Program-made: the position numbers and the translations under genes
Origin: Pomacea canaliculata
Taxonomy: Eukaryota > Mollusca > Gastropoda > Architaenioglossa > Ampullariidae
NCBI RefSeq assembly: GCF_003073045.1
Contig: NW_020229206.1
Span: 1-64,000, forward strand
Direction: 5' to 3'
Length of the DNA stretch: 64,000 nt
In this document: positions 3,270-44,900 of the stretch, in pieces
Layout of the letters: each line of letters starts with the position of its first letter
Numbering within the stretch: the first letter of the stretch is position 1
The notes under the pieces: generated by a model
Databases searched by the model: none
The model's input: the letters and a program-made list of their open reading frames with translations, nothing else
Told to the model about the DNA's origin: nothing

Positions 3270-4305
3270 TAATGACTATTGTGTACATAACACTGGGTAG
3301 TGTAAATTAACACTGGGATATGTGTAATACAAACCACAGGGATATGCTGTAATAAATGCACAACACTGGATATGCTGTATAAAACAACACAAGGGATATG
3401 TGTAATAATCACAACAGGGATATCTGTGTAATAACATGGGATTCTCTGGAATATGGTTAACACAACAAACTGGGAGTATATGTCTAGTAATAACACAAAC
3501 ACTGGGATCAGTGTTGTGAATAACACAACACTGGGGTATGTGTAATAACACAACACAGGGATATGTGTAATAACACAACACTGGGATATGTGTAATAACA
3601 CTGGGATATGTGTAATAACACAACACTGGGATATGTGTAATAACACAACACTGGATATGTGTAATAACACAACACTGGGGTATGTTGAAATAAACAACAC
3701 GGGGTATGTGTAATAATCACCAACACCAGGGATATGTGAAACACAACCTGGGAATGTGTAATAACACTAACATGGGATATTGTTTAAAAACACAGACACT
3801 GGGAATAATAACACAACCAACACAGGGATATGTGTAATAACACAACACTGGGATATGTGTATAAACACAACACTGGGATATGTGTAATAACACACTGGGA
3901 TATGTGTAATAACACAACATTGGGGTATGTGCTAGATAACACAACACAGGGAATACTGTGTAATAACACACACTGGATATGTGTGTAATAACACAACACT
4001 GGGATATGTGTAAAAACTCTGGGACATGTTGTAACACACAAACAGGATAATTGTGTAATAACACAACACTGGGGTATGTGTAATAACAGAACACTGGGAT
4101 ATGTGTAATAACACAACATTGGGATAAGTCTAATAACACCGGGATATGTGTAATAACACAACATTGGGGTATGTGTACAAACACTGGGATATGTGTAATA
4201 ACACTGGGATATTAGATAATAACATCACATGGGTATGTGTAGTAACACTGGGAAATATGTGTGTAATAACACGGATACACAACACCTCGGGATATGTGTA
4301 GACAC
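3270..4305. repeat. 25-bp minisatellite (about 40 copies, strongly degenerate)
   Basis: Unit close to GGGATATGTGTAATAACACA plus ACACT. Many copies carry one- or two-base insertions and deletions, so spacing drifts. Minus-strand open frames across it (repeats like CYYTYPSVV) are products of the repeat. Confidence 0.92.
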
Positions 4306-4319
4306 AACACGCATTCAAC

Positions 4320-5110
4320 TGGGAAACGCAATCGCTCAGGCGTGGTAAGACTGGCGTGTGTGTGAAATGTTATAACAACCACTTGTTTGTAGATAACTCG
4401 TCATCACACCGCCCTGGAAGAGATTTTAAGGTGAACGGTACGGCAGTCTCTTTCTTTCTCGTCTTCGTTCCAGGATCAAGCCCTATGGGCCCATGTTCTC
4501 AGAACTACCCGGTCTTATTCATGTCTTCCGTGTTGTAACGGTCACGTGACCAGTCCAACGCCTCTCCCAGTCCTTCCCGGTTGCCTTATAAGGAAATCCC
4601 ACTATCTCCTGCACCGTTGTGAATGAAGGGCTGAGACACGTGATCTGACAAACAGCAGGCCACCACCTCCAGACCTCTGACCTCCTCTAGTGATGAAGCG
4701 CCTGTGTTTTTAGTGGTTTGCATCCAACGGGTGGGTGGGTGACAGGTGGATGTCTACAGGGAAGACGCAGGCGAGTGTCTTGTTACACATTTTGTCAAAG
4801 TGCCACACACCAATCAGTCATGTCTGCTGTTAAAATCAAAATGTCAGCTATTGCAGCAGATAGACAGGGAGCGGAGAGAGAGAGTTAAGTGCAGATGTGA
4901 GGAGAGAATACGAGGGGAATCCCCTTGCTCCCCTTCCTGCTGTGGCCGTCAGATCCTGTTGTGTAGCAGATGACTGGAGTACCGGCCACCACCCTGACGC
5001 AGCTGTACGTGCATGTATATGTGTGTGTGTGTCCTCGTCCAGAAGGTTTTCCTAAAAATACTTCAATGAAACACATTCTGCAAAACTGAAAACGGCAATC
5101 ACGATACTTC
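4320..5110. other. Spacer between two minisatellites, no recognised gene
   Basis: Mixed-composition sequence with short frames only. A TGTGTGTGT run lies at about 5,020. Nothing with domain or splice support was found. Confidence 0.4.
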
Positions 5111-5119
5111 GAGTAGCTT

Positions 5120-6408
5120 TCAGTTCCACACACGATGCTTGTGTACATGAGACCTGTAGTCACCCACAGTTGTACACACGATACTTGAAGTCACCCACAG
5201 TTGTACACATGAGACTTGTAGTCACCCACCATTGTATACACGATACTTGTAGTCACCCACAGTTGTACACACGATACTTGTAGTCACCCACAGTTGTATA
5301 CACGATACTTGTAGTCACCCACCATTGTATACACGATACTTGTAGTCACCCACCATTGTGGTACAACGATACTATGTAGTCACCACAGTTGTACACATGA
5401 GACTGTAGTAAGCACCCACAGTGTGTACACACGATACTTGTAGTCACCCACCAATTGGATACACGAATATGTACGTCACCCACCATTGTGTACACGATAC
5501 TTGTAGTCACCCACAGTTGTACACATGAGACTTGTAGTCACCCACAGTTGTACACACGATACTTGTAGTCACCCACCATTGTATACACGATACTTGTAGT
5601 CACCCACCATTGTGTACACGATACTTGTAGTCACCCACAGTTGTACACATGAGACTTGTAGTCACCCACAGTTGTACACACGATACTTGTAAGTCCACCA
5701 CCTTGTATACAGAACTGTAGTCACCACACCATGTTATGATACTTGTAGTCACCCACAGTTGTACACATGAGACTTGTAGTCACCCACAGTTGTACACACG
5801 ATACTTGTAGTCACCCACCATTGTATACACGATACTTGTAGTCACCCACCATTGTATACACGAAACTTTGTATCACCCCACCAGTTGTAACACTGACGAC
5901 TTGTAGTCACCACCATTGTACACCGATACTGTAGTCACCCAGAATTGTACACACGATACTTCTAGTCATCCACACCAGTTGTCATTACAACGATACTTGT
6001 AGCACCCACAGCTTGTACACACGAGTAGTCACCCACCGATTTGTATACACGATACTTGTAGTCACCCACCATTGTACACACGATACTTGTAGTCACCCAC
6101 CATTGTACACACGATACTTGTAGTCACCCACCATTGTACACACGATACTTGTAGTCACCCACAGTTGTACACACGATATCTTCTAGTCACCAGCACGTGT
6201 ATACATCGATACTTGTAGTCAACCCAGTTGGACACACGATACTTGTAGTCACCGACCATTGTATACACGCATAACTGTGTCCACCACCATTGTATTCACG
6301 ATACTGTTTAGTCACCACCATTGTATAACACGACTACTTTGTAGTCACCACGTTGATTAACACACGATTACTTGTAGTCACCCACAGTTGTACACATGAG
6401 ACTTGTAT
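5120..6408. repeat. 31-bp minisatellite (about 40 copies)
   Basis: Unit is CACCCACAGTTGTACACACG followed by ATACTTGTAGT, alternating between CACAG and CACCATT variants. Runs of near-perfect units alternate with scrambled copies full of single-base insertions and deletions. There are no unique spacers between units, so this is not a CRISPR array. Confidence 0.92.
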
Positions 6409-6819
6409 AAAACTCAAAAGTGATGCTCTTTCTCTCTCACACACCACATCACACAACATAAACAGTTAAGGAGACTTCTAACCCTGGAGGTCAGTTTACA
6501 CGTGGACCTGTTTGACCCGACCCCTCTCCCCACCTTGTCAAGCGTGACACGTTATTATTCATTCATTTAGTGTCGCTGTGCTGTACAGGTGTACACTGTT
6601 AGTTAGTATTATCGTGCTGTCCAATCTCAGTATGTCTCTACTGTACGATGTGTGAAGGGCTCGGTGTCCACTCCATGGTGCGGTCAGTTGTCAGTTTGTT
6701 ATACTGCGGTCAGTCCGTTTCTTCATCTTACAATCACATAGCTTTATGGTACGGCAGATACACTCCCTCACGTAACGATCACTCTTTGTGTTATGCTGAG
6801 TCACGTGATTGTCAGACAG

Positions 6820-7700
6820 TTCTTCCTCTGCCCACCATCACCATCACCGTCACCATCAGCCTTATCAGCCACTCCAGTCACGCTGAAAGTCCTCCAGAAC
6901 CGCATCCCCTCCACCACAACTTCGCAGACTTCAAAGACGATTTTAGACAGAGGCAGGCACGGGTGGCTGTGGATGTGATGAGAAAATCGAAGAAGACCTC
7001 GTTCAAGTCATCGAAGCGCTGAGCGACAGCTCAACGACTACAGCACTACTGGACTTACTATGTACATGTTCAGCTGACGTGCGTCAGGGCGCCCCCTATC
7101 GCTTGTAATGTTTGACATCTTTGTGGAGAACATCAAGTGTTAAACAACCCTCGACCATCACACCACCATTCCCATTCGTGAAAGACCGATCGTCAACCTA
7201 AGCTTCGCAGACGACAGACTTATGACCGGGGTACAGGTGCAAGAGGTCAGCAGCTTCCAGTACTTGGGAGCCACCCTCTCCAATGGCTAGACTGGATAGG
7301 ACCTGGCATAGCCATCAGATAAGGTGACTACTAGTACCAGCTGTACAAACAGGTAGTGTCCATCCTGCTCTACGGATGTGACACATGGACTCTGCGCGCC
7401 GAGACGGAGAATCCGGGTAGTTGAGAGCAAGTACCCCGGCTGTCGTACAGTGAACAGAAGGCTGATGTCTTTGTAGTAAGCACGGAGGCCATACTTGTAG
7501 GACATGCAAGCTCTACTTACAACAGATAAACCACGTAGCCCTCTGTCCAAGGTACTCTGGAGGGTAGTGGACGTCGCGGTGGTCAGAGGAAGAACTGACA
7601 CAAAGGTGAAAGACTGGACAGGTCATCCTGCTGACTGTCGCCCACAATAGACAAGATGGCCGCCTGTCAGCTGCCGCCTCTATCATGTCATCCCCCCAAC
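6820..7700 (+). mobile_element. RTE-like LINE fragment (reverse transcriptase to C-terminus, decayed)
   Basis: In order along the plus strand, in shifting frames, pieces match a molluscan RTE-type reverse transcriptase: an ISLISHSS-like segment, LKVLQNRI, a VRQGAP segment (template-binding region), LSFADD (catalytic YXDD-like box, here FADD), VSSFQYLGATLSN, then SILLYGCDTWTL and a C-terminal tail ending near 7,690. Several frameshifts, stops and an internal deletion after the FADD box break it, so it cannot be active. Confidence 0.75.
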
Positions 7701-9200: not shown

Positions 9201-9249
9201 TCCTTGTTGTGGTCGACTTGTCCCGCTTGCTTTTGTGTTGTCGTATGTC

Positions 9250-10036
9250 ATCCTCTGCTGTGTACGTGTGTGCGTGTGTGCGTGTGATATTGTAACATCC
9301 TCTGCTGTGTACGTGTGTGCGTGTGTGCGTGTGATATTGTAACATCCTCTGCTGTGTACGTGTGTGCGTGTGTGCGTGTGATATTGTAACATCCTCTGCT
9401 GTGTACGTGTGTGCGTGTGATATTGTAACATCCTCTGCTGTGTACGTGTGTGTGTGTGATATTGTAACATCCTCTGCTGTGTACGTGTGTGAGTGTGTGC
9501 GTGTGATATTGTAACATCCTCTGCTGTGTACGTGTGTGAGTGTGTGCGTGTGATATTGTAACATCCTCTGCTGTGTACGTGTGTGCGTGTGATATTGTAA
9601 CATCCTCTGCTGTGTGTGTGAGTGTGATATTGTAACATCCTCTGCTGTGTACGTGTGTGCGTGTGTGCGTGTGTGCGTGTGATATTGTAACATCCTCTGC
9701 TGTGTACGTGTGTGCGTGTGATATTGTAACATCCTCTGCTGTGTACGTGTGTGTGTGTGATATTGTAACATCCTCTGCTGTGTACGTGTGTGCGTGTGTA
9801 CGTGTGTGCGTGTGATATTGTAACATCCTCTGCTGTGTACGTGTGTGCGTGTGATATTGTAACATCCTCTGCTGTGTACGTGTGTGCGTGTGATATTGTA
9901 ACATCCTCTGCTGTGTACGTGTGTGCGTGTGATATTGTAACATCCTCTGCTGTGTACGTGTGTGAGTGTGTGCGTGTGATATTGTAACATCCTCTGCTGT
10001 GTACGTGTGTGCGTGTGATATTGTAACATCCTCTGC
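9250..10036. repeat. 38/46-bp compound minisatellite (about 18 copies)
   Basis: Constant core GATATTGTAACATCCTCTGC plus TGTGTACGTG, with a variable number of 8-bp GTGTGTGC subunits, so copies are 38, 46 or 54 bp long. Minus-strand open frames of 231-374 codons span it; they are long only because the repeat lacks stops in those frames. Confidence 0.93.
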
Positions 10037-10209
10037 TGACCATCTTTCTTTCTGCGGGCTTGTATCCTTGGTGGCGCCATCTCCTGTCTGAGTGAAATAC
10101 TAGTGACGGACTCCACTGTCTGTCTTCCGCTGAAACTCGCAGTCTCACGGGACATCAGAAGTTTACACACTTGACTACTCTTGTGGTCCAGCCGTCTGCC
10201 TTTCCCGAT

Positions 10210-11356: not shown

Positions 11357-14002
11357 TCAGATTCTCAAAATAAAACTGTGAGCAGGCTCTTTCTTCATGC
11401 TTGTGCTGCCCTCCTGTGTCCTCAAGCACTCGGCGCTCCTTCCGTTAGTCTTCTCCAGTTTGTGTCGACTAAGTCGGACAACTCGACTCTGACTGCTGTC
11501 CTTGCCTCCCTTGTCTTCAATGACGCTAGTGACGAGGCTAGTCACGTGACCTTTTCTGCTGCCGAGAAAAGTGTGGAAGGTAGCGCCCCCTGGCAGCTCC
11601 GCTGGAGTAGCAGAGACTGGTAGCGTCTTACTCCCGGGGGACGCCAGCAGCTGCAGCGCGCTGTCCCTATGAGCACCGGACACCACCTGTGGCGGACTTC
11701 CTTCAATGCGAGCAGACAACTCTCGCGGCATACCTGTTGAGTTGTCTGCAAAGGAAAGGTCGCTGCTCCACTTTGGCGGTTGAACAGTCTGTCCCACCTC
11801 CTGGCTGGGTGGGCGTAACTGCCTGGTGTCAATGCCGTTCACAGACGACCCAACACTCGGCGTGAACGTCTGAACATTTCCGTAGATAACTTCCGGCTTC
11901 TGTCTCTTGGCTTCCCAACTACCATTACCATCAGCGACCGGCAGGTTGTCCACAGGTGAGGGCGGGTCCAAAACTGAGTTTGGTGCAGGGTAGCGGGTAC
12001 CCCTCGTCACAGCTACCCCCCGTTGAAATCTTCCACGTTTCTCTCCCTTGGCGCTGAGTGACGTTGTGGTTGAGGTGGGAGTGGTCCCGAGTAACCACTC
12101 ACTGCTAGCCGGCTGTTGGCTGGCAGATACAGCGTCTTGATCATGGGTGGTCCCCCTTGGTGCCAGTGAGGGCCACGGGCCAGGATTGGGCGCAAGCTGA
12201 GACCAGTCTCTGAGAGAGGACACTAAGAGACAGTTGGGCGCACCTTCTCTGTAACCCCATGTCTACAAGAAAGGAAAGAAAACAATTGTCATCAAACCAG
12301 TGACGACGATGATCATGATGATCATGATGACGACGCAAAAAGGAATCAAACTATTATTATTCCAATGAATGTGGGATGATGAGCCGCGAGCTATGTGGAA
12401 CCAGCGTGTTACCTGGGCGCCTTGTGACTTCAGGTGTGTGGTGGAGGAATAACTAGGGTCCACGTGTGACGTCGTCTCAATCTCTTCCTCATCGCCATCA
12501 TCGTCGTCATTGCCTACTTCTGCTTCATCTTGTGAGTGGCATGCGTCTCCCTCCTCATGTCTGTCTGTGTCCAGCTCATCCTCATGGTGGAAACACGTGG
12601 AGCGAGACCCATTGTCGTCGCGTGCATGGCTGACGCTGGAGTAGTTGCTCTGGTCAACAAGTTACAAGGACCAACTCGTTAAACACTCGGACCCTCAGCG
12701 GGAGCGAGTAAGGTCGTGAAAAAGTATTAATGTTCTGGAAGAGGTTTCAAGTACAATTAAGTGTTGGAAAGGAATGTTAACGACATGTTGACATTTGTTT
12801 ATTAAGTTTACAATATGAAGCCTGCTATTTTTATCTGATAATGCAGCTATACGTTGTTAGGTGAATTTGTGGGTGTTGTATGCTACGTCACTTCATCCAT
12901 GTACAGGACAGGCTACAAGATGTGTGTTTGTACTGTACACGTGTACACGTGTCCCTTGTATCTCGAGCTGATTTCTCTGCCTCGGTGTGTGTGTGTGTGT
13001 GTATATATGGTTTGTTTTTGGTTGTTGTTGTTTTTTTTGGGGGGGGGGGAGTTGTGTGTTTTATGTGTGAATGTCACAGGCGAAGGGTTCAGCTGTGATG
13101 TCACAGCTGTATGATTTACCCGTGGTGATGTGATGCTGAAGAAGGAGTCCTGTCTCTCGGTCATTTCTGTGTTTCTGTGTTCGCTCCCTTTGTATGTCAC
13201 CACCACCCGCCCTCTCAAAGCTTTGCGCTGCCTGTTCACATGATAAAAATATTATGAACGACATGTAGTTTCTGTCCACACGGCAATGGTATGAATGCTG
13301 CTGTACAATAAACACTGGAAGTTCATATATCAGCTTCAATCATGACCAGCTTTGGTCCACCCAACCACAACGACCACCCCGTATTCCCACGTCAGCCTCT
13401 CTTTCGTCTAGACTGTCCCTCTCCCTGCTACCAGTTCTTGACACGCTCATACCATCACAAATCACACGAAGCTCACGCCATCACAAATCACACGAAGCTC
13501 ACGCCATCACAAATCACACGAAGCTCACGCCATCACAAATCACACGAAGCTCACGCCATCACAAATCACACGCTCATACCATCACAAATCACACGAAGCT
13601 CACGCCATCACAAATCACACGAAGCTCACGCCATCACAAATCACACGAAGCTCACGCCATCACAAATCACACGCTCACGCCATCACAAATCACACGAAGC
13701 TCACGCCATCACAAATCACACGAAGCTCACGCCATCACAAATCACACGCTCACACCACCGAGTAAATATTGACACAGTCAGACTCCCAGCTTCAGTGAGG
13801 AAGTTCGGAGTGACTGCTGTGGGCGGAGGTAAAGGTGGTTACTTGTAGAGATTCACTCTGTGTCGCTTACACCAGTGCAACCACAACACGGCCACAAGGG
13901 TCGCCAGCAAAAGAAGACCTAAAGCAATAGTTGAAATCTGCCAGGCAACTGAAACACACGAGAAGAAATCGTCTGAGACACATTAATATTGCCCTCTCTT
14001 TT

Positions 14003-16861: not shown

Positions 16862-16868
16862 CTGAGGC

Positions 16869-17212
16869 TGATGGCACTGTCCAGACATAAACACAGGTTT
16901 ACGAGTACTGATGGCACTGTCCAGACATAAACACAGGTTTACGAGTACTGATGGCACTGTCCAGACATAAACATATGTTTACGAGTACTGATGGCACTGT
17001 CCAGACATAAACACAGGTTTACGAGTACTGATGGCACTGTCCAGACATAAACATATGTTTACGAGTACTGATGGCACTGTCCAGACATAAACACAGGTTT
17101 ACGAGTACTGATGGCACTGTCCAGACATAAACACAGGTTTACGAGTACTGATGGCACTGTCCAGACATAAACATATGTTTACGAGTACTGATGGCACTGT
17201 CCAGACATAAAC
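16869..17212. repeat. 40-bp minisatellite (9 copies)
   Basis: Unit ATGGCACTGTCCAGACATAA plus ACACAGGTTTACGAGTACTG. Copies alternate between ACACAGG and ACATATG variants in a higher-order pattern. It starts at the upstream edge of the first recognised MAM exon, so the candidate acceptor lies at the repeat boundary. Confidence 0.95.
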
Positions 17213-23100: not shown

Positions 23101-26100
23101 GTGTATCTCAGTTTAACAGTGATTGGTCACAAATTCAGTCTTGAAATATGAGAGGGATCAGCTACTTTTATTATAAAAGTAAAATACGGCAGCCCATAGC
23201 CTAGTGTTCCTGAGCTAAGCAATGACATGACTTTATTTATCCCAGAGGACAATTAGTAGCAGCTCTATAAAGAAGCAAGGGTTAACACCACACAACACAA
23301 CAACAATCAACAATACCATGAAACATTTGTAACCGAGTGGTGTTGTGATTGAGGGGAGTCTAACAGTCACCACAACAGTCCAGCACTCAAACCAGAAGGC
23401 TGGAGCCTGTCAGCAGTTACACAATTCTTTTAATGTCAATAGATCTACAGTCACGGCTGCGTCGCTTGTCTCGCGTCTTCTCTTCGTAGTTTTCTCCCCT
23501 GTCCTTACGTTTCAGCTCTGCCCTTGTAGCAAGATAGGACCTCTCCTCAAGATCCGAAGTTCCTCGAGGTATGCAGACGCTGGGTTTTCTAGTGTTGCTG
23601 AATGGATTAGCAGACATTTTCGTGGTATTTTTTTATCAAAACCAAAAATAAAGCGTGAGTTGTATGTGTTTAGCTTTTTTCATGTTATTTTTATTTAAAT
23701 TTGACTTGTAGTTACTCCTTAGCAGACGATCAAACACCCACTCGCGCAGTGATATCAAAGAAAAATAGTCCCACTATACATATTTCTTTGCAAGCTGTAA
23801 TTATTTGAAACTAAAAGTTTTACGTGTTTCTCTACTGTTAACTTTAACTTTGTAGTATGCACAGACCATTGGTTCTCGCTGAGAGCTCGGTTCTGTCCTT
23901 ACAACACCTTGAGGGGAGTTCGAATCTTGAGGAGAGGTCCTATCTTGCTACACCCTTATATACCTCGCGGGTGGGTTACTTTTCGCGCTCTTTTGCATCA
24001 GCGTACTTTTCGCGCTCTTTTGCATCAGCGTACTTTTCGCGCTCTTTTGCATCAGCGTTATTTTCGCGGTCTTTCACAATCGTACCTTTACTTACTGGCA
24101 TGCATCAGCAGATCTATCTAACAAGCGCTGGACTACCGGCCCTCTACATCCCCGCCGACTCTTTCTCTAACAGCGCCCTCGCTGATGAGCTTTTGCTAGC
24201 AATACTAGGGCTGGTATACAAGCTCGCCTAATATGCTTACGACGGTGGGGCAGGTATCTTAAATATTTTAAATCAAGAAACATCTGTTGCTGCTGAGGCA
24301 CAATGTGTCTATAAGGGCAGGCATTCCGTCAATGTCTCGTGTGTCATCCCTGTCAATGACATTTGGTAGGCGCAGCCGTGGCAAAACAAGAAGAAAAATA
24401 AACAAAATATCAAGACAAACTAATCAATGCTTACACCACATCTATGTTATCTACAGTCTCAATGAATAGTGTCATACAACCGTTTTCTCCCCATGTGAGT
24501 TTTAGGCCTGTCTAACAGCAAACCGCGGCTGGAATACTGCAGGCACTGTCCCTTCTGGAATCACACTTACTGTCATATCAGGCACCACAGATACTGTCAT
24601 TTCTGAAACCACAGGCACTGTCAGTTTTGGTACTGTCATATCTGGCACCGCACACACTGTCACTTCTGGCACCACAGGCACTGTCACTTTTGGTATTAAT
24701 CTTGTTCTGGCTTGATGGGGTGGAAGAGTACCATACCAGAACGGAGTTTCTTCGTCACTGTCGTAGTCCTGACAATTCTGTGTCTCCGGCAGTTGAATGT
24801 CTTCTAACTGCAGAGACGACTTCGCTGCTCTGTTGTCGCTATTGAGGGTCAGTGCAGGGCCGTCAACAAGGGGCCTGACTGTATACACAGCACTGTCATC
24901 AACTGGCCGGCTGGAGATATTACAGGTACTCCGGCCGCTCCGCCCATGGAATCTGTCCCGTTGCAGTTCTGCTTGGCTTTGCCGTCGCTGTGGTTGTCGC
25001 TGTTGTAGTTGCACCACTGGCTTGTTTTGAAACTTTTTCTTTGAAATCGGCCGGCGATCACTGCCCCGGCATTTCACTCCTCCGATACCACAGACGAACG
25101 TTGCTTCAACACCCTTGTATGACAGTCTGGGTTCAAATTCCACCACTTCACCTTTGCCGAGGCTGCGAAAGCCTGCCTTGTGAATAACTGAATGGTGGAC
25201 AAAGACGTCTTGATCGCCATTATCAGGTGTGATGAATCCCCATCCCTTTGCCACGTTGAACCACCTGCAGAAACCTCGCCTTCTGCCCCCTCCACCATCG
25301 CTGTCATGGGGAGTTGCTGGTCGCTGGCCGCTCCGCTGTCTTGTCTGCTGTCGTCGCATACATTTCTGTTTGTGCTGACGATCAGCCTCGAAGGGGAAAT
25401 CACGTTGCTGTGTCGTATGAAGCCGGGAGGCCGCCTCCATCTCCAGCTGTCTGACTCGTGCAGTCAGACGATCTATCTCATCCTCCCTGTCATTACACAT
25501 CTCCTCTCTCTCTACACGTCGGGCCGTCTTGAGGAGATCAGCAAAAGAAGACCCATGGTCGGCCAGCTGTCTGGATGTTTCACGTCGGACCTGGCTGTTT
25601 CTCAGTCCTTTTACAAAGCGTGTCGCCAGGTGTGTACTGGATATGGCGTCGCTCAGCAGGCGATTTGCTTTCGCCTGTAAATTTCGCAGGGTCGCAGCAT
25701 ATTCAATGACCGCCTCCTTACTCTGCTGTCGGCGGTTATAAAAACTGGCAACAATGTCTATAGCATCTCTCCGCTCGCCGTATGCCTCTCTCAAAATATC
25801 CAGAATCTTTTCCGGCGTGTCTATCATGTCATGAGGGAACATCAGAACTCGCCGTCTAGCAGGTCCCTCCAGCGCGTTGAGAACATAGACACACGCCGCA
25901 TTCTCAGGCATCGGGCTTAGGGCAAGACCTATCTCCACCTCTCTTTCAAACTCGTCACTTGGCCCTCCGGCAAACTTCTGAAGACGGAATAAATGACCTG
26001 TTCGTACAGCCTCTGCTGTAAGATCGCCATCTGCAGCCATTGTGTGCACTTCTCTGCTGACACGGATCCTGCTCGCAGCGCCAAAAGATGTAACCGAGTG

Positions 26101-29100
26101 GTGTTGTGATTGAGGGGAGTCTAACAGTCACCACAACAGTCCAGCACTCAAACCAGAAGGCTGGAGCCTGTCAGCAGTTACACAATTCTTTTAATGTCAA
26201 TAGATCTACAGTCACGGCTGCGTCGCTTGTCTCGCGTCTTCTCTGCGGAGTTTTCTCCCCTGTCCTTACGTTTCAGCTCTGCCCTTATATACCTCGCGGG
26301 TGGGTTACTTTTCGCGCTCTTTTGCATCAGCGTACTTTTCGCGCTCTTTTGCATCAGCGTACTTTTCGCGCTCTTTTGCATCAGCGTACTTTTCGCGCTC
26401 TTTTGCATCAGCGTACTTTTCGCGCTCTTTTGCATCAGCGTACTTTTCGCGCTCTTTTGCATCAGCGTTATTTTCGCGCTCTTTCACAATCGTACCTTTA
26501 CTTACTGGCATGCATCAGCAGATCTATCTAACAAGCGCTGGACTACCGGCCCTCTACACATTCATACCCACCACACCACACAGACTGCCATACAGTCACA
26601 TGGCTAAAACAACAGAGGGTTAGGCAAGCCTCAATCTGTTGGTCCTGCATGCAGGCACACAAAATCAGCAGTCCAGTGAAAGCTGACAGAACTCTCCTGA
26701 TAGGACACATTATTATCACATAGAATTGAATAAACTTTTAAAAAATATCTTCCTGTTTCACAGAGTCTGAAGGTCACTTAGGGTTGTCCCAGTAGCTTTT
26801 GGGTAGGTGTATACAACATGATTCAAACTATTCTTGTCCATATCAAATTACATGATACAAAGATTTTATACTTCAAACTGTCACTTTCAATACATCAGTC
26901 ATTTTCCCCGTCAGTTACTGAGTAACAGCTCAAGTTCCTGCACTCCAAGCATACCTTTTATCTTAATAATCAGTTAACTTTGAATGTCCCCTACAAAGGT
27001 TTATTTTTGTCAGGTGTTTATTATCCCAAAGGTTTTACTGACCTTGTTTCAGGGCCCTGATCTTAGCCTTCTTGCTGTTAAGAACTGTCACAAACTGAGA
27101 CACATTATTGAGAACAAACATTAGTGATGAGTGTCACACTGCATAACCTAGAGTCTCCTGTTTAATGTTAATCTCTCCTTACCAGGTAATTCTTGACTGC
27201 TGTTTAACAGAATATTAGAAAGTGGACAAAACACACATCTGTGAATGTTTTCAATGGAAGAAGAGGTACATATGTAAGTGTTTGTCTATAAATGCAAGTG
27301 CACACACATGCAAGCCTGTGTGTGTGTGTGAGTGTGTTAAAATAAGCATACATCTATGGGTGTGGTATGAGATCACACTAATGCTCTCAGGTATACGCTA
27401 TTCTTGCTTGCTCTGATGAGAATTTAGCTTATTTGAATAGCACTCATATTATGAACATAGAATCTTTCTCTTTCTGAAAAATACTAGTACTAAAATTTCT
27501 CAAACATTTGATGCAATGAACAGACACTGACCTTGGAGTACAAATCTCTTTCCAGCTCCTCTTTAGCACTCACACACTTTTCCAGACGCTGCAACAAAGC
27601 AGCACATATTGCAGTCTATTTGCCTTCACAGTGCAGGATACAGCGATAAATTACTCCACTAGACAATGTGCAGGTAGCAGTAAGTACATCTCATGTGCAA
27701 AACTGCTCTGACAATTAATTTCACAGTCAAATAAGATTAACAATGTACTATCTACTGTAAAACAAAACAAATGCAGCTGTTTAGAAATGATGGCAACTTA
27801 TGCTTCAAAACAGTGATAAAAAGATGTCTTGCACTCCATGGAAATCATGATTCATGAGTACAGAACTATAATACATTCATTTGCTGAGGGATGACTATAA
27901 TAGTTGAAAACAACATCCTGTTTACAACCAGAATAAATACTTAACTCTTACAACCATACAAAAATCTCAATACAGTGTATTAAGATTGGAGATAAGTCTT
28001 TAAAAGGCATTTCTACCCCTTAAAGGTTAACCTGAGTAAGACATGAAAGTTACCAGGAAGTTAAACAAAACATACAACATTCATTAGTTTATTACAAAAA
28101 ATACACTGTACATTTTTAATTACTATTGCACATGATGCAAGAGCTCAGATCACATGGTTATAGGGGATTGCTCAGTCAGTCAGCTGGCTTATAAGGTAAG
28201 GTAAAGGTCTTTTGAGATCCTTGAGGAGTGAGGTGTTAGAGACCTCAGGACCTTTATGTGAGGGTGGTGCCCATCTCATCTCCCTCACTGCCTTACCTTC
28301 CCCAACCCTCTGTGGAGTCAGGTACCCATTCCCACCAGTCGACTAAGGGAAGCTTGCTGTTCTACCCAGGTATCGTACCAGCATGACTCTCAGTTTAGAC
28401 ACCAGCCCTCTAACCGCTCGGCTATCTCGCTTAGGTTAGCCTCAAACTTTTGTGAATATTTTTTTTATCAAAATCTTAGACATTATGTCAGTACCAACAG
28501 TTTTATCATGCCTATTTTTAAGTTAAAATGTTTAGATAATGTGACCATTGTTCTGTCAATGATATTCCTTTTAAATCAAGCATGGCTTGTCATCACCTTT
28601 AGTGCATTTTGTCGTTCTTGTGACAGCCTCTGGTTTTCAGTCTCTAAAGAGTGAATTCTGTTGTGTAATTCTTCTGCTGAGCCAATGCAGGCATCAAATA
28701 TATGGGCAAGGGCCCTAACTGCATCTGTTTGGCTATGAAGAAGCACACTGCCCATAAGTATCTGGTACAGAAATGGCAAAGATATATTAAAAGTTGACAA
28801 CATTGTTTATCTTCAAATAAATAAATTTGAATTTATGCAAAGGCCTTATATGGACAGACAAAATATCATTTTAGCATAGTACTGATAGCCCTGTACTAGT
28901 AAAGTTTGTAATTTTTCCAAGAAAATTGATAGGATATGGTAGTGATAGTATGAAACATTTGTATGTTGCTTTTTAATTAAAGGGATTCTAAAGGCAAAAT
29001 AAAACTGCTTAGAATCGCGTAAAGAGTAGGATAAATTTGAATCTCGTCTATTTATATGTGTGTTCATGTGGAAAACGTTGAAGGTTTTTAGTAGATTTTT

Positions 29101-30998: not shown

Positions 30999-32296
30999 TC
31001 AGACGTATATAGGGGATATCAGTTCGTGATAGAAGTCGATGGGGTAGAGGCAGCGCACGGACACTACCGGAAGTTTACATTCATCGACAAGCCTTTGGTG
31101 TAAGAGGGATTCTAATTGGTTGTTGCAAAGGTCAAGATCAATTCGGGCCACTTCCGTCAACACGTAGTCATGCTGTGAAAGATCTTTAGAAATGGTTAGG
31201 AAATTCTTAAACCTTTGACCTTCTCTATATTCTTTTCTGATGCATAGAAAATTACTTCTAAATGAAATTTTTCTAAAGACTGTTTTTTCATCAGACTCGT
31301 ATATTTTAACTATAGTGCAATTGAATTGCAGACGCATTTTCACTTCTGCCAGAATCCCAGCAGGAACCATGTCGGGTGTAATGCTAGTTGACATTAAAGA
31401 GTTAGATGTTCCCATGTATTGTTTATTCTAGTATTGACGATACATTTATATATTTGATAAATATAGGTGTTTCTTTCGTCATGCAGTATTAAAAAAAAAC
31501 TATGTCACAAGCAATATGCTAAAACTTACCAGGTCTGGCTGTAATGAAAACGTGTATTTTTGATTCTCTCATATATTTTACTAGCTTTCATAAAGTGGAC
31601 CTTATATTTTTCAGTCTGGCTGTAATGAAAACGTGTATTTTTGATTCTCTCATATATTTTACTAGCTTTCATAAAGTGGACCTTATATTTTTCAGTCGGC
31701 TCTTTTTAATTTTCAAAGTCTACTGACGGTGATCCTGTTGTTGATATGTACCTGTGCATATCTACGGTCTATAGCCCCATCACTTCTGGACCGACACAAG
31801 ACAGGGTAATGCTTACTTTTTATTTCATCTCTCCTAAAAAAAAAAGAAAAATAAAAAAAACAACAACTTTGAATCTGTCATTGCTCTCTCTTTCTCTTGT
31901 TAATTTTATAGAAAATTTGTGTGGGAAGACAATCTTTTAAACTTTACTTTTCTATGCTGTTTCTTCTTGCAAGTATACAATTTTCATGAAATAAACTAAA
32001 ATCATTAATAATATTCTTACCTGGCTCCTTGGCTTGACATCAGCATCAGGTGTGTCTTGGAGTTGTTTGAGTGACTGTATATGCAAAAACTGTCTTTGGC
32101 CACTTCTTGTGTACCAAATGTTTTCTTTCATTATAGTCTTCACCATTAAATTCATTTCAAACAAATTTTTCACACGATACACAAAACAACAAGGGTGTAT
32201 CCCTACCAAGGCAAATGTCCCACATTGTTTTGCTTTGTGGAGAAAGCTGTCATAATAGGTCAACATTGAAGCAGATAACAAAGCTACAGTACACAA
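30999..32296 (-). CDS. Unrecognised gene, terminal exons (hypothetical protein)
   Basis: No family recognised. The last exon, 31383-30999, is open for 127 codons to a stop ([17 protein letters not shown] at its joined start, [11 protein letters not shown] at the end). It joins in phase to an exon ending at 31530 with a good donor (TG|GTAAGT). That exon runs from about 31,700 and encodes [20 protein letters not shown] plus RFHYSQT twice in tandem. Its acceptor is weak. Further exons are possible: 31833-31752 (strong poly-T acceptor, [15 protein letters not shown]) and one ending at 32021 ([17 protein letters not shown], donor GTAAGA) that opens at or before 32,290. The phases of these two do not fit each other directly, so an exon is missing or one call is wrong. 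The protein is hydrophilic, with no signal peptide or membrane segment in the seen part. It lies head-to-tail with XRCC4. Confidence 0.42.
31533..31694. repeat. Exact 81-bp tandem duplication inside a predicted exon
   Basis: Two copies, 31,533-31,613 and 31,614-31,694, identical by eye at every base. 81 is a multiple of three, so the minus-strand frame gains 27 residues without a shift. The identity implies a very recent event, or an assembly duplication. Confidence 0.9.
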
Positions 32297-44261: not shown

Positions 44262-44900
44262 GGTGATTTCATCAAGACTACAAATTTCAGTTTCTTGTGA
44301 GTGCTTGTATGACATAAACATTGTGTTTCTATCATGCCCTCCCATGTACAAGTGTACTCTGTTTCAGTTCCTTGTGAGTACTTGTATGACATAAACATTG
44401 TGTTTCTATCAGGCCCTCCCATGTACAAGTGTACTCTGTTTCAGTTCCTTGTGAGTACTTGTATGACATAAACATTGTGTTTCTATCAGGCCCTCCCATG
44501 TACAAGTGTACTCTGTTTCAGTTCCTTGTGAGTACTTGTATGACATAAACATTGTGTTTCTATCAGGCCCTCCCATGTACAAGTGTACTCTGTTTCAGTT
44601 CCTTGTGAGTGCTTGTATGTAATAAACATTTTGTTTCTATCATGCCCTCCCATGTACAAGTGTACTCGATCTTCCTCTTCCCATCTGAGTGCTTGTATGA
44701 CACAAACATTGTTTTTATCAGGCCCTCCCATGTACAAGCTATAGTGTACTCGATCTTTCTCTTCCCATCTGAGTGGTTGTCTAACATAAACATTGTGTTT
44801 CTCTCAGGCCCTCCCATGTACAAGTGTACTCTGTTTCAGTTCCTTGTGAGTGCTTGTATGTAATAAACATTGTGTTTCTATCATGCCCTCCCATGTACAG
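44262..44900. repeat. 77-bp tandem repeat (about 8 copies) upstream of calumenin
   Basis: Unit includes CCCTCCCATGTACAAGTGTA, CTCTGTTTCAGTTCCTTGTG and TTGTATGACATAAACATTGT. Copies starting near 44,338, 44,415, 44,492 and 44,569 are almost identical; later copies swap in a CTCGATCTTCCTCTTCCCAT variant. 77 is not a multiple of three, so the minus-strand frames rotate and are not coding. Confidence 0.93.

Follow-up and report, generated by a model that had tools for sequence, protein, structure and literature searches.

We found that a 64,000-nucleotide stretch of the genome of the gastropod Pomacea canaliculata (contig NW_020229206.1, positions 1 to 64,000; hereafter the window, meaning the whole stretch analysed) carries an element that is, judged by its structure, a Gag-only, non-autonomous long terminal repeat (LTR) retrotransposon of Ty3/gypsy type, in which the capsid part of Gag is followed in frame by a cold-shock domain (CSD) from the snail's own LIN28. 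The best overall explanation, to which we give a probability of about 0.7, is that this Gag-only element captured LIN28, uses the CSD as the module that grips RNA and borrows its enzymes. A previous sequence-only reading of the window had proposed that an element captured a host cold-shock domain and uses it as its nucleocapsid module. The capture was borne out, with the host's own LIN28, by way of spliced mRNA, as the donor for many copies of one family; the nucleocapsid use is a suggestion with which the position of the CSD, the absence of a knuckle, the conservation of residues and purifying selection are consistent. That reading had missed that the element is non-autonomous, carrying Gag only, and that the captured part of LIN28 extends beyond the CSD.

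The 515-codon frame that had been read between two LTRs exists on the minus strand, with GTG as its listed start and the first ATG at residue 4, giving 512 amino acids (aa) from that ATG. The Pfam CSD model matched residues 258-320 (E-value 8.7e-20; 70.8 bits vs. a cut-off of 27), in agreement with the LIN28-like domain that had been read at residues 258-323. A search of the PDB with the frame returned a cold shock protein 2 chain as the best match (2.4e-17) and LIN28A structures at 2.8e-17, with the LIN28A alignment extending past the CSD through GGVxCxGSxRRP; by itself, this result would not identify the domain as that of LIN28, but comparison with the host gene does. The host LIN28 gene is located at C6:6.893-6.924 Mb, with its CSD exons at C6:6893357 and C6:6910968-6911140 (edges read from splice sites), 17,524 bp apart, and a zinc knuckle match at C6:6924186-6924305 (E-value 2.5e-5). 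The window element aligned with the joined CSD exons at 82% identity over 272 nt, without a gap and across the exon junction, so that the source was spliced LIN28 mRNA. At the protein level, 73 of 89 residues were identical in this stretch, and a second LIN28 stretch matched at 56% across 36 residues of a host frame that contains one stop there. The knuckle part that lies between the two captured stretches is missing from the element. Like host LIN28, the element retains the exon order and a GSDRRP motif after the CSD, but it differs in lacking the LIN28 zinc knuckles (none of 10 CSD frames had a knuckle motif C-terminal to the CSD, so the knuckle pair typical of LIN28 is not present) and in having the CSD fused to a capsid part.

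Alignment of the CSD yielded 32 rows, 9 of which were dropped as gapped or incomplete, leaving 23 ungapped rows from 22 loci (L017 and L034 being the same locus). In a protein tree containing 11 of these, the element rows formed one clade (95/94) that was joined by snail LIN28 (96/90) and then, less firmly, by human LIN28A (82/79); the tree is small, with long outer branches and three outgroup sequences entered by hand. An origin from Y-box or bacterial cold-shock proteins was ruled out on this small tree because the element rows group with snail LIN28. The DNA match to the host exons and the clade with host LIN28 together mark the domain as being of LIN28 type. The bases at the former exon junction were identical in all 23 rows, and the fusion recurs at no fewer than 37 loci on many contigs, so that it is not a one-off. 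These data, together with the exact target-site duplication flanking the window copy, refute the idea that two unrelated sequences were adjoined by an assembly error or one insertion, for which we found no favourable evidence.

In the genome searched (440,159,624 bases in 24 contigs), there were 95 matches to the window frame, 13 of which cover at least 440 of the 515 residues without a stop; among these 13, the CSD is shifted in L002, has 19 gap positions at C2:26819293 and has a 3-nt gap at C9:4090999. The CSD model gave at least 46 matches. By position, 38 of these rows, representing 37 loci, were assigned to the element family and the other 8 to normal genes of the host (five near one another at 28.43 Mb on C6, plus C6:6893357, C1:22377574 and C2:28263930). 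This count is a lower bound, with protein queries adding C10:17517. All 37 loci were also matched by the whole frame, three of them (C12:18712095, C10:19663604 and C3:38225700) without a clear capsid part among the matches listed, and the CSD was joined to the capsid part in all eight CSD frames that were aligned. Of the 13 CSD elements in which an LTR pair was found, 11 had pairs that were 97.5-100% identical, the exceptions being L013 (92-97%) and L012 (84-85%, with a large gap); since the pairs are nearly identical, the CSD elements appear to have been mobile recently. Among 16 elements, 11 were flanked by exact 4-bp duplications (nine out of 12 CSD elements and two out of four pol-bearing ones), and three of the four bases matched in L004, L010 and L016. 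Gag matches restricted to residues 3-182 (66-70% identity, with one to three TAG stops each) were observed at C2:39669981, C7:27460306, C7:26384832 and C9:10251905, and perhaps represent an older related repeat group. A search for relatives in IMG/VR returned 37 pattern stretches, none of which was confirmed.

The window element has an LTR pair, a primer-binding site (PBS), a polypurine tract (PPT) and a target-site duplication, the features of Gag-only elements of the TR-GAG type. Two stretches match between its LTRs, one of 201 nt at 98.5% identity and one of 172 nt at 99.4%, and its PBS looks complementary to the end of a tRNA-Ser. No protease or reverse transcriptase (RT) was detected in the frame by Pfam, and the internal region spans 1.9 kb. 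As the element has no pol, its assignment to Ty3/gypsy is by way of its Gag, PBS and PPT. For the capsid-like N-terminal half proposed earlier, the match to the Pfam profile Retrotrans_gag (0.0077) fell below the cut-off, but this part and the Gag of L009 and L010, two pol-bearing elements, are one and the same protein (75% DNA identity); in these elements an aspartic protease follows 3' of Gag in the same frame. Retrotrans_gag was found at an E-value of 1 or better in all eight family members scanned, the window copy included (best, 7.9e-05), and a PDB search with a profile of eight members gave nothing meaningful for the capsid part (three chains, E-values 1.1-1.2). As had been noted before, the frame lacks a CCHC knuckle, a scan of it for C-x2-C-x3,5-H-x4-C being negative.

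Behind the LIN28 piece, residues ~378-451 matched the C-terminal end of Pol, with 57% identity over 37 residues in L015 and 65% over 74 residues in an open frame of 1118 aa at C10:1040148, which was also matched by an RT/RNase H query at C10:1037979. With Gag before and the Pol end behind the LIN28 piece, the arrangement is that of gene transduction, namely gag, host cDNA and the end of pol, the reading frame being kept at either junction, with an intronless host segment preceded by gag and followed by a 3' part of a retroelement. Because the junctions and the missing knuckle are common to the copies, a single capture event seems probable. Synonymous divergence between the element CSD and host LIN28 averaged 1.0, so that the capture is not recent, and its date can be fixed only poorly.

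Selection was estimated from seven open knuckle-less copies among the 13 and from nine after adding L011 and L012, with L014 (non-homologous tail) and L002 (shifted CSD) left out. For the seven copies, pN/pS was 0.29 in the capsid part (95% limits, 0.19-0.43), 0.74 in the linker (0.28-3.08), 0.18 in the CSD (0.08-0.35), 0.27 in the second LIN28 stretch (0.11-0.70) and 0.98 in the Pol tail (0.49-2.45); for the nine, the values were 0.28, 0.45, 0.26, 0.25 and 0.84, respectively. Jukes-Cantor-corrected ratios with L014 included were 0.19 for the capsid, 0.24 for the CSD and 1.01 for the tail. Mean dN/dS was 0.27 among 22 distinct CSD sequences. The positions equivalent to W46, F53, F55, F73, H75 and F84 of LIN28, its RNA-contact positions, each hold one residue throughout the 23 ungapped rows. 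From these comparisons, the CSD and the capsid are under purifying selection among the open copies, while the Pol remnant drifts. Had the CSD arrived by a chance transduction and spread with the element without any function, copies such as the open frames with a damaged CSD (L002 and C2:26819293) and the gapped or incomplete 9 of 32 rows would fit; we nevertheless regard this as very improbable, since pN/pS was lower in the CSD than in the Pol tail of the same frames in 99.9% (seven copies) and 99.2% (nine copies) of bootstraps, and since mean dN/dS between host and element was 0.08, a value to which constraint on the host gene contributes.

Four pol-bearing relatives, with LTR pairs 97.7-100% identical, resemble the window element in the capsid part, PPT and LTR ends, and three of the four also share its PBS; they differ in retaining pol domains, and no CSD was detected by Pfam in their Gag frames. 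By Pfam, L009 has protease, RT and RNase H; L010 has protease and RNase H; L015 has RNase H and weak pieces of integrase; and L016 has RVT_1 (4816-5766), RNase H (6047-7114) and rve (7309-7590), which is the domain order of Ty3/gypsy. The Gag frame of L016 is truncated ahead of the CCHC position. Internal regions measured 1.9-3.0 kb in 12 CSD elements vs. 4.4-5.3 kb in the four pol-bearing elements. A six-frame scan of 29 CSD loci, with decayed copies included and the host gene (L050) left out, found no CCHC knuckle in 27, the motif being present only in L011 and L012. These two copies are mosaics, with a capsid 94% identical to that of L009/L010 and 77% to the window copy, but with a CSD, second LIN28 stretch and Pol tail 98-100% identical to the window copy; the element's own single CCHC motif is kept ahead of the CSD, the reverse of the order in LIN28. 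That they might be ancestral intermediates with both CCHC and CSD was ruled out, as the capsid is of the pol-bearing kind (94%) and the CSD of the window kind (98%). In L014, an LTR of the pol-bearing kind (87-89%) occurs together with a capsid and CSD that resemble those of the window copy, whereas the end differs and is a coiled coil. The simplest source of the mosaics would be template switching between co-packaged RNAs, though recombination between DNA copies could have produced them instead. The coiled-coil stretch, which stands in place of the Pol tail in this CSD-Gag copy (L014 4043-6319), had 88 matches in the genome including itself, one being 84% identical in a 585-aa frame at C12:14952894, and seems to belong to a different family of repeats. 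The coordinates of the parts of the window element are given in Table 1.

Table 1. Parts of the Gag-LIN28 element, in window coordinates
Feature	Position	Strand	Evidence or remark
Target-site duplication AATG (element strand), 4 bp, upstream copy	26559..26562	.	
5' LTR, TGTAG...TTACA, with 27-bp tandem repeats	26089..26558	-	LTR pair comparison
Primer-binding site TGGCGCTGCGAGCAGGAT, 18 nt	26066..26083	-	Identical in pol-bearing L010, L015 and L016; one additional base in L009
Fusion frame of Gag, LIN28 and Pol tail, 512 aa from the first ATG; coordinates include the stop	24502..26040	-	
Matrix/capsid-like part, residues 4-215	25405..26040	-	
Basic linker, residues 216-251	25297..25404	-	Site of the CCHC knuckle of relatives, absent here
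LIN28 stretch, 272 nt, 82% to spliced host exons	25025..25296	-	Exon junction at 25191/25192
Cold-shock domain, residues 258-320	25090..25278	-	Pfam CSD
Second LIN28 stretch, 75 nt, 81% to C6:6924347-6924421	24925..24999	-	Host match downstream of the knuckle exon
Tail, C-terminal end of Pol	24697..24918	-	Matches L015 8241-8351 and the open 1118-aa frame at C10:1040148
Degenerate in-frame repeats, TVPVVPEV-like	24544..24693	-	Length varies from copy to copy
Polypurine tract GAGAAAGAGTCGGCGGGGA	24149..24167	-	Precedes the 3' LTR in four pol-bearing relatives too
3' LTR, with nested insert	23328..24148	-	LTR pair comparison
Target-site duplication AATG (element strand), 4 bp, downstream copy	23324..23327	.	

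The insert in the 3' LTR, which is absent from the 5' LTR, is a 427-bp sequence (23526-23952) resembling a miniature inverted-repeat transposable element, with inverted ends of 46-47 bp (89% over 47 columns) and CCCTT repeats on both sides. Elsewhere in the window, dense minisatellite arrays occupy 3309-4272, 5155-6407, 9249-10064, 13441-13757, 16868-17212 and 44285-44899, with units of about 25-78 bp and longer, and underlie many of the long frames of the first 20 kb. A tandem duplication of 81 bp, both copies of which are identical, is present at 31533-31701, and no Rfam family was matched in the window.

As a rule, the nucleocapsid of an element consists of a CCHC knuckle or a basic tail of its own. 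In the explanation that we favour, a Ty3/gypsy-type element copied spliced host LIN28 mRNA, in frame, into the space that separates gag from the end of pol; it has kept neither pol genes nor LIN28 zinc knuckles, and in its Gag the capsid part is followed by the LIN28 CSD. The fusion Gag probably assembles particles, either by itself or together with the related Gag that pol-bearing elements encode. The CSD would take over the RNA-gripping role of the absent CCHC knuckle, and the enzymes (protease, reverse transcriptase and integrase) would be borrowed from the pol-bearing relatives through the common PBS, PPT and LTR ends, with both kinds of RNA being reverse-transcribed together, as the mosaic copies suggest. 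Cooperative binding of the LIN28 CSD to single-stranded RNA, and its mixing with YB-1 on mRNA, are described in PMC7979924, and RNA binding by the element CSD is therefore a fair expectation. On these grounds we infer that a nucleocapsid-like role of the CSD is the best reading.

Several observations weigh against this explanation. The survey covers one host genome; selection was sampled in seven or nine pre-chosen open copies, with wide limits for the tail; and AlphaFold models, with a mean predicted local distance difference test score of 33 for the whole frame and 41 for the CSD alone, were too poor to be used. The CCHC motifs in the Gag of L009, L010 and L015 are below the Pfam cut-off, the pol frames are broken in all four pol-bearing copies read, and the flanks of L006 and L007 show no duplication. 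In addition, the constraint on the CSD could stem from solubility, and the basic linker (pN/pS 0.45-0.74) might on its own suffice to bind RNA.

In the main alternative, the LIN28 part would be directed at the RNAs of the host, like the captured cellular genes of transforming retroviruses, and bind pre-let-7 or YB-1-packaged mRNA so that translation of host or element RNAs is improved, its position in Gag being incidental. The purifying selection on the CSD would suit such an effector, as would the mixing of the LIN28 CSD with YB-1 cited above, and let-7 would be a plausible target in view of the restriction of human LINE-1 by let-7 (PMC7658363). As the element lacks the zinc knuckles, which known LIN28 requires for its let-7 work, and its CSD was fused to the capsid part in every CSD frame aligned, we consider an effector of this kind quite unlikely. 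It is also conceivable, though doubtful, that the exchange of its viral zinc knuckle for a host pluripotency RNA-binding domain gives the element access to germline messenger ribonucleoprotein stores (YB-1/LIN28 targets) or frees it from let-7; if so, the capsid would package or commandeer RNA by host rules.

Two components of this system are already known, namely Gag-only LTR elements (PMC8704663) and gene transduction by LTR elements, e.g. Bs1 (PMC7264820). The TR-GAG elements of plants, one of which was reported to transpose in Arabidopsis, resemble the window element in having two LTRs and a single Gag frame and are thought to use the enzymes of relatives, but they have an ordinary Gag, and the excerpted account mentions no captured host domain (PMC8704663); the window element, in contrast, inhabits an animal, and its Gag continues into LIN28 and then a Pol tail. 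Retroviral oncogene transduction likewise places host gene sequence in a retroelement. Bs1 of maize also contains host gene sequence, and transduced frames occur in one or a few copies according to PMC7264820. In the window element, the host insert is intronless and lies between gag and the end of pol; it differs in supplying a nucleic-acid-binding domain behind the capsid, in belonging to a family with 37 or more loci and in that this domain is under purifying selection. The LTR elements of bdelloid rotifers are also animal elements with gained coding sequence, but their captures are additional frames, with no LIN28 or CSD mentioned in the excerpt of PMC5408684. Among the titles listed in our searches of open-licence papers, none concerned a Gag that carries a LIN28 or other cold-shock domain, and the main text of the snail genome paper contains none of the terms 'retrotransposon', 'gag', 'cold shock' and 'lin28'. 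In this snail, an identified host gene that is still present in the same genome gave Gag a nucleic-acid-binding domain, and selection kept it. The family thus offers a case with a known donor in which a capsid protein would have changed its RNA-binding part, and provides a system in which the choice of RNA by Gag may be studied, the Gag-LIN28 fusion being the mirror image of the domestication of Gag by hosts.
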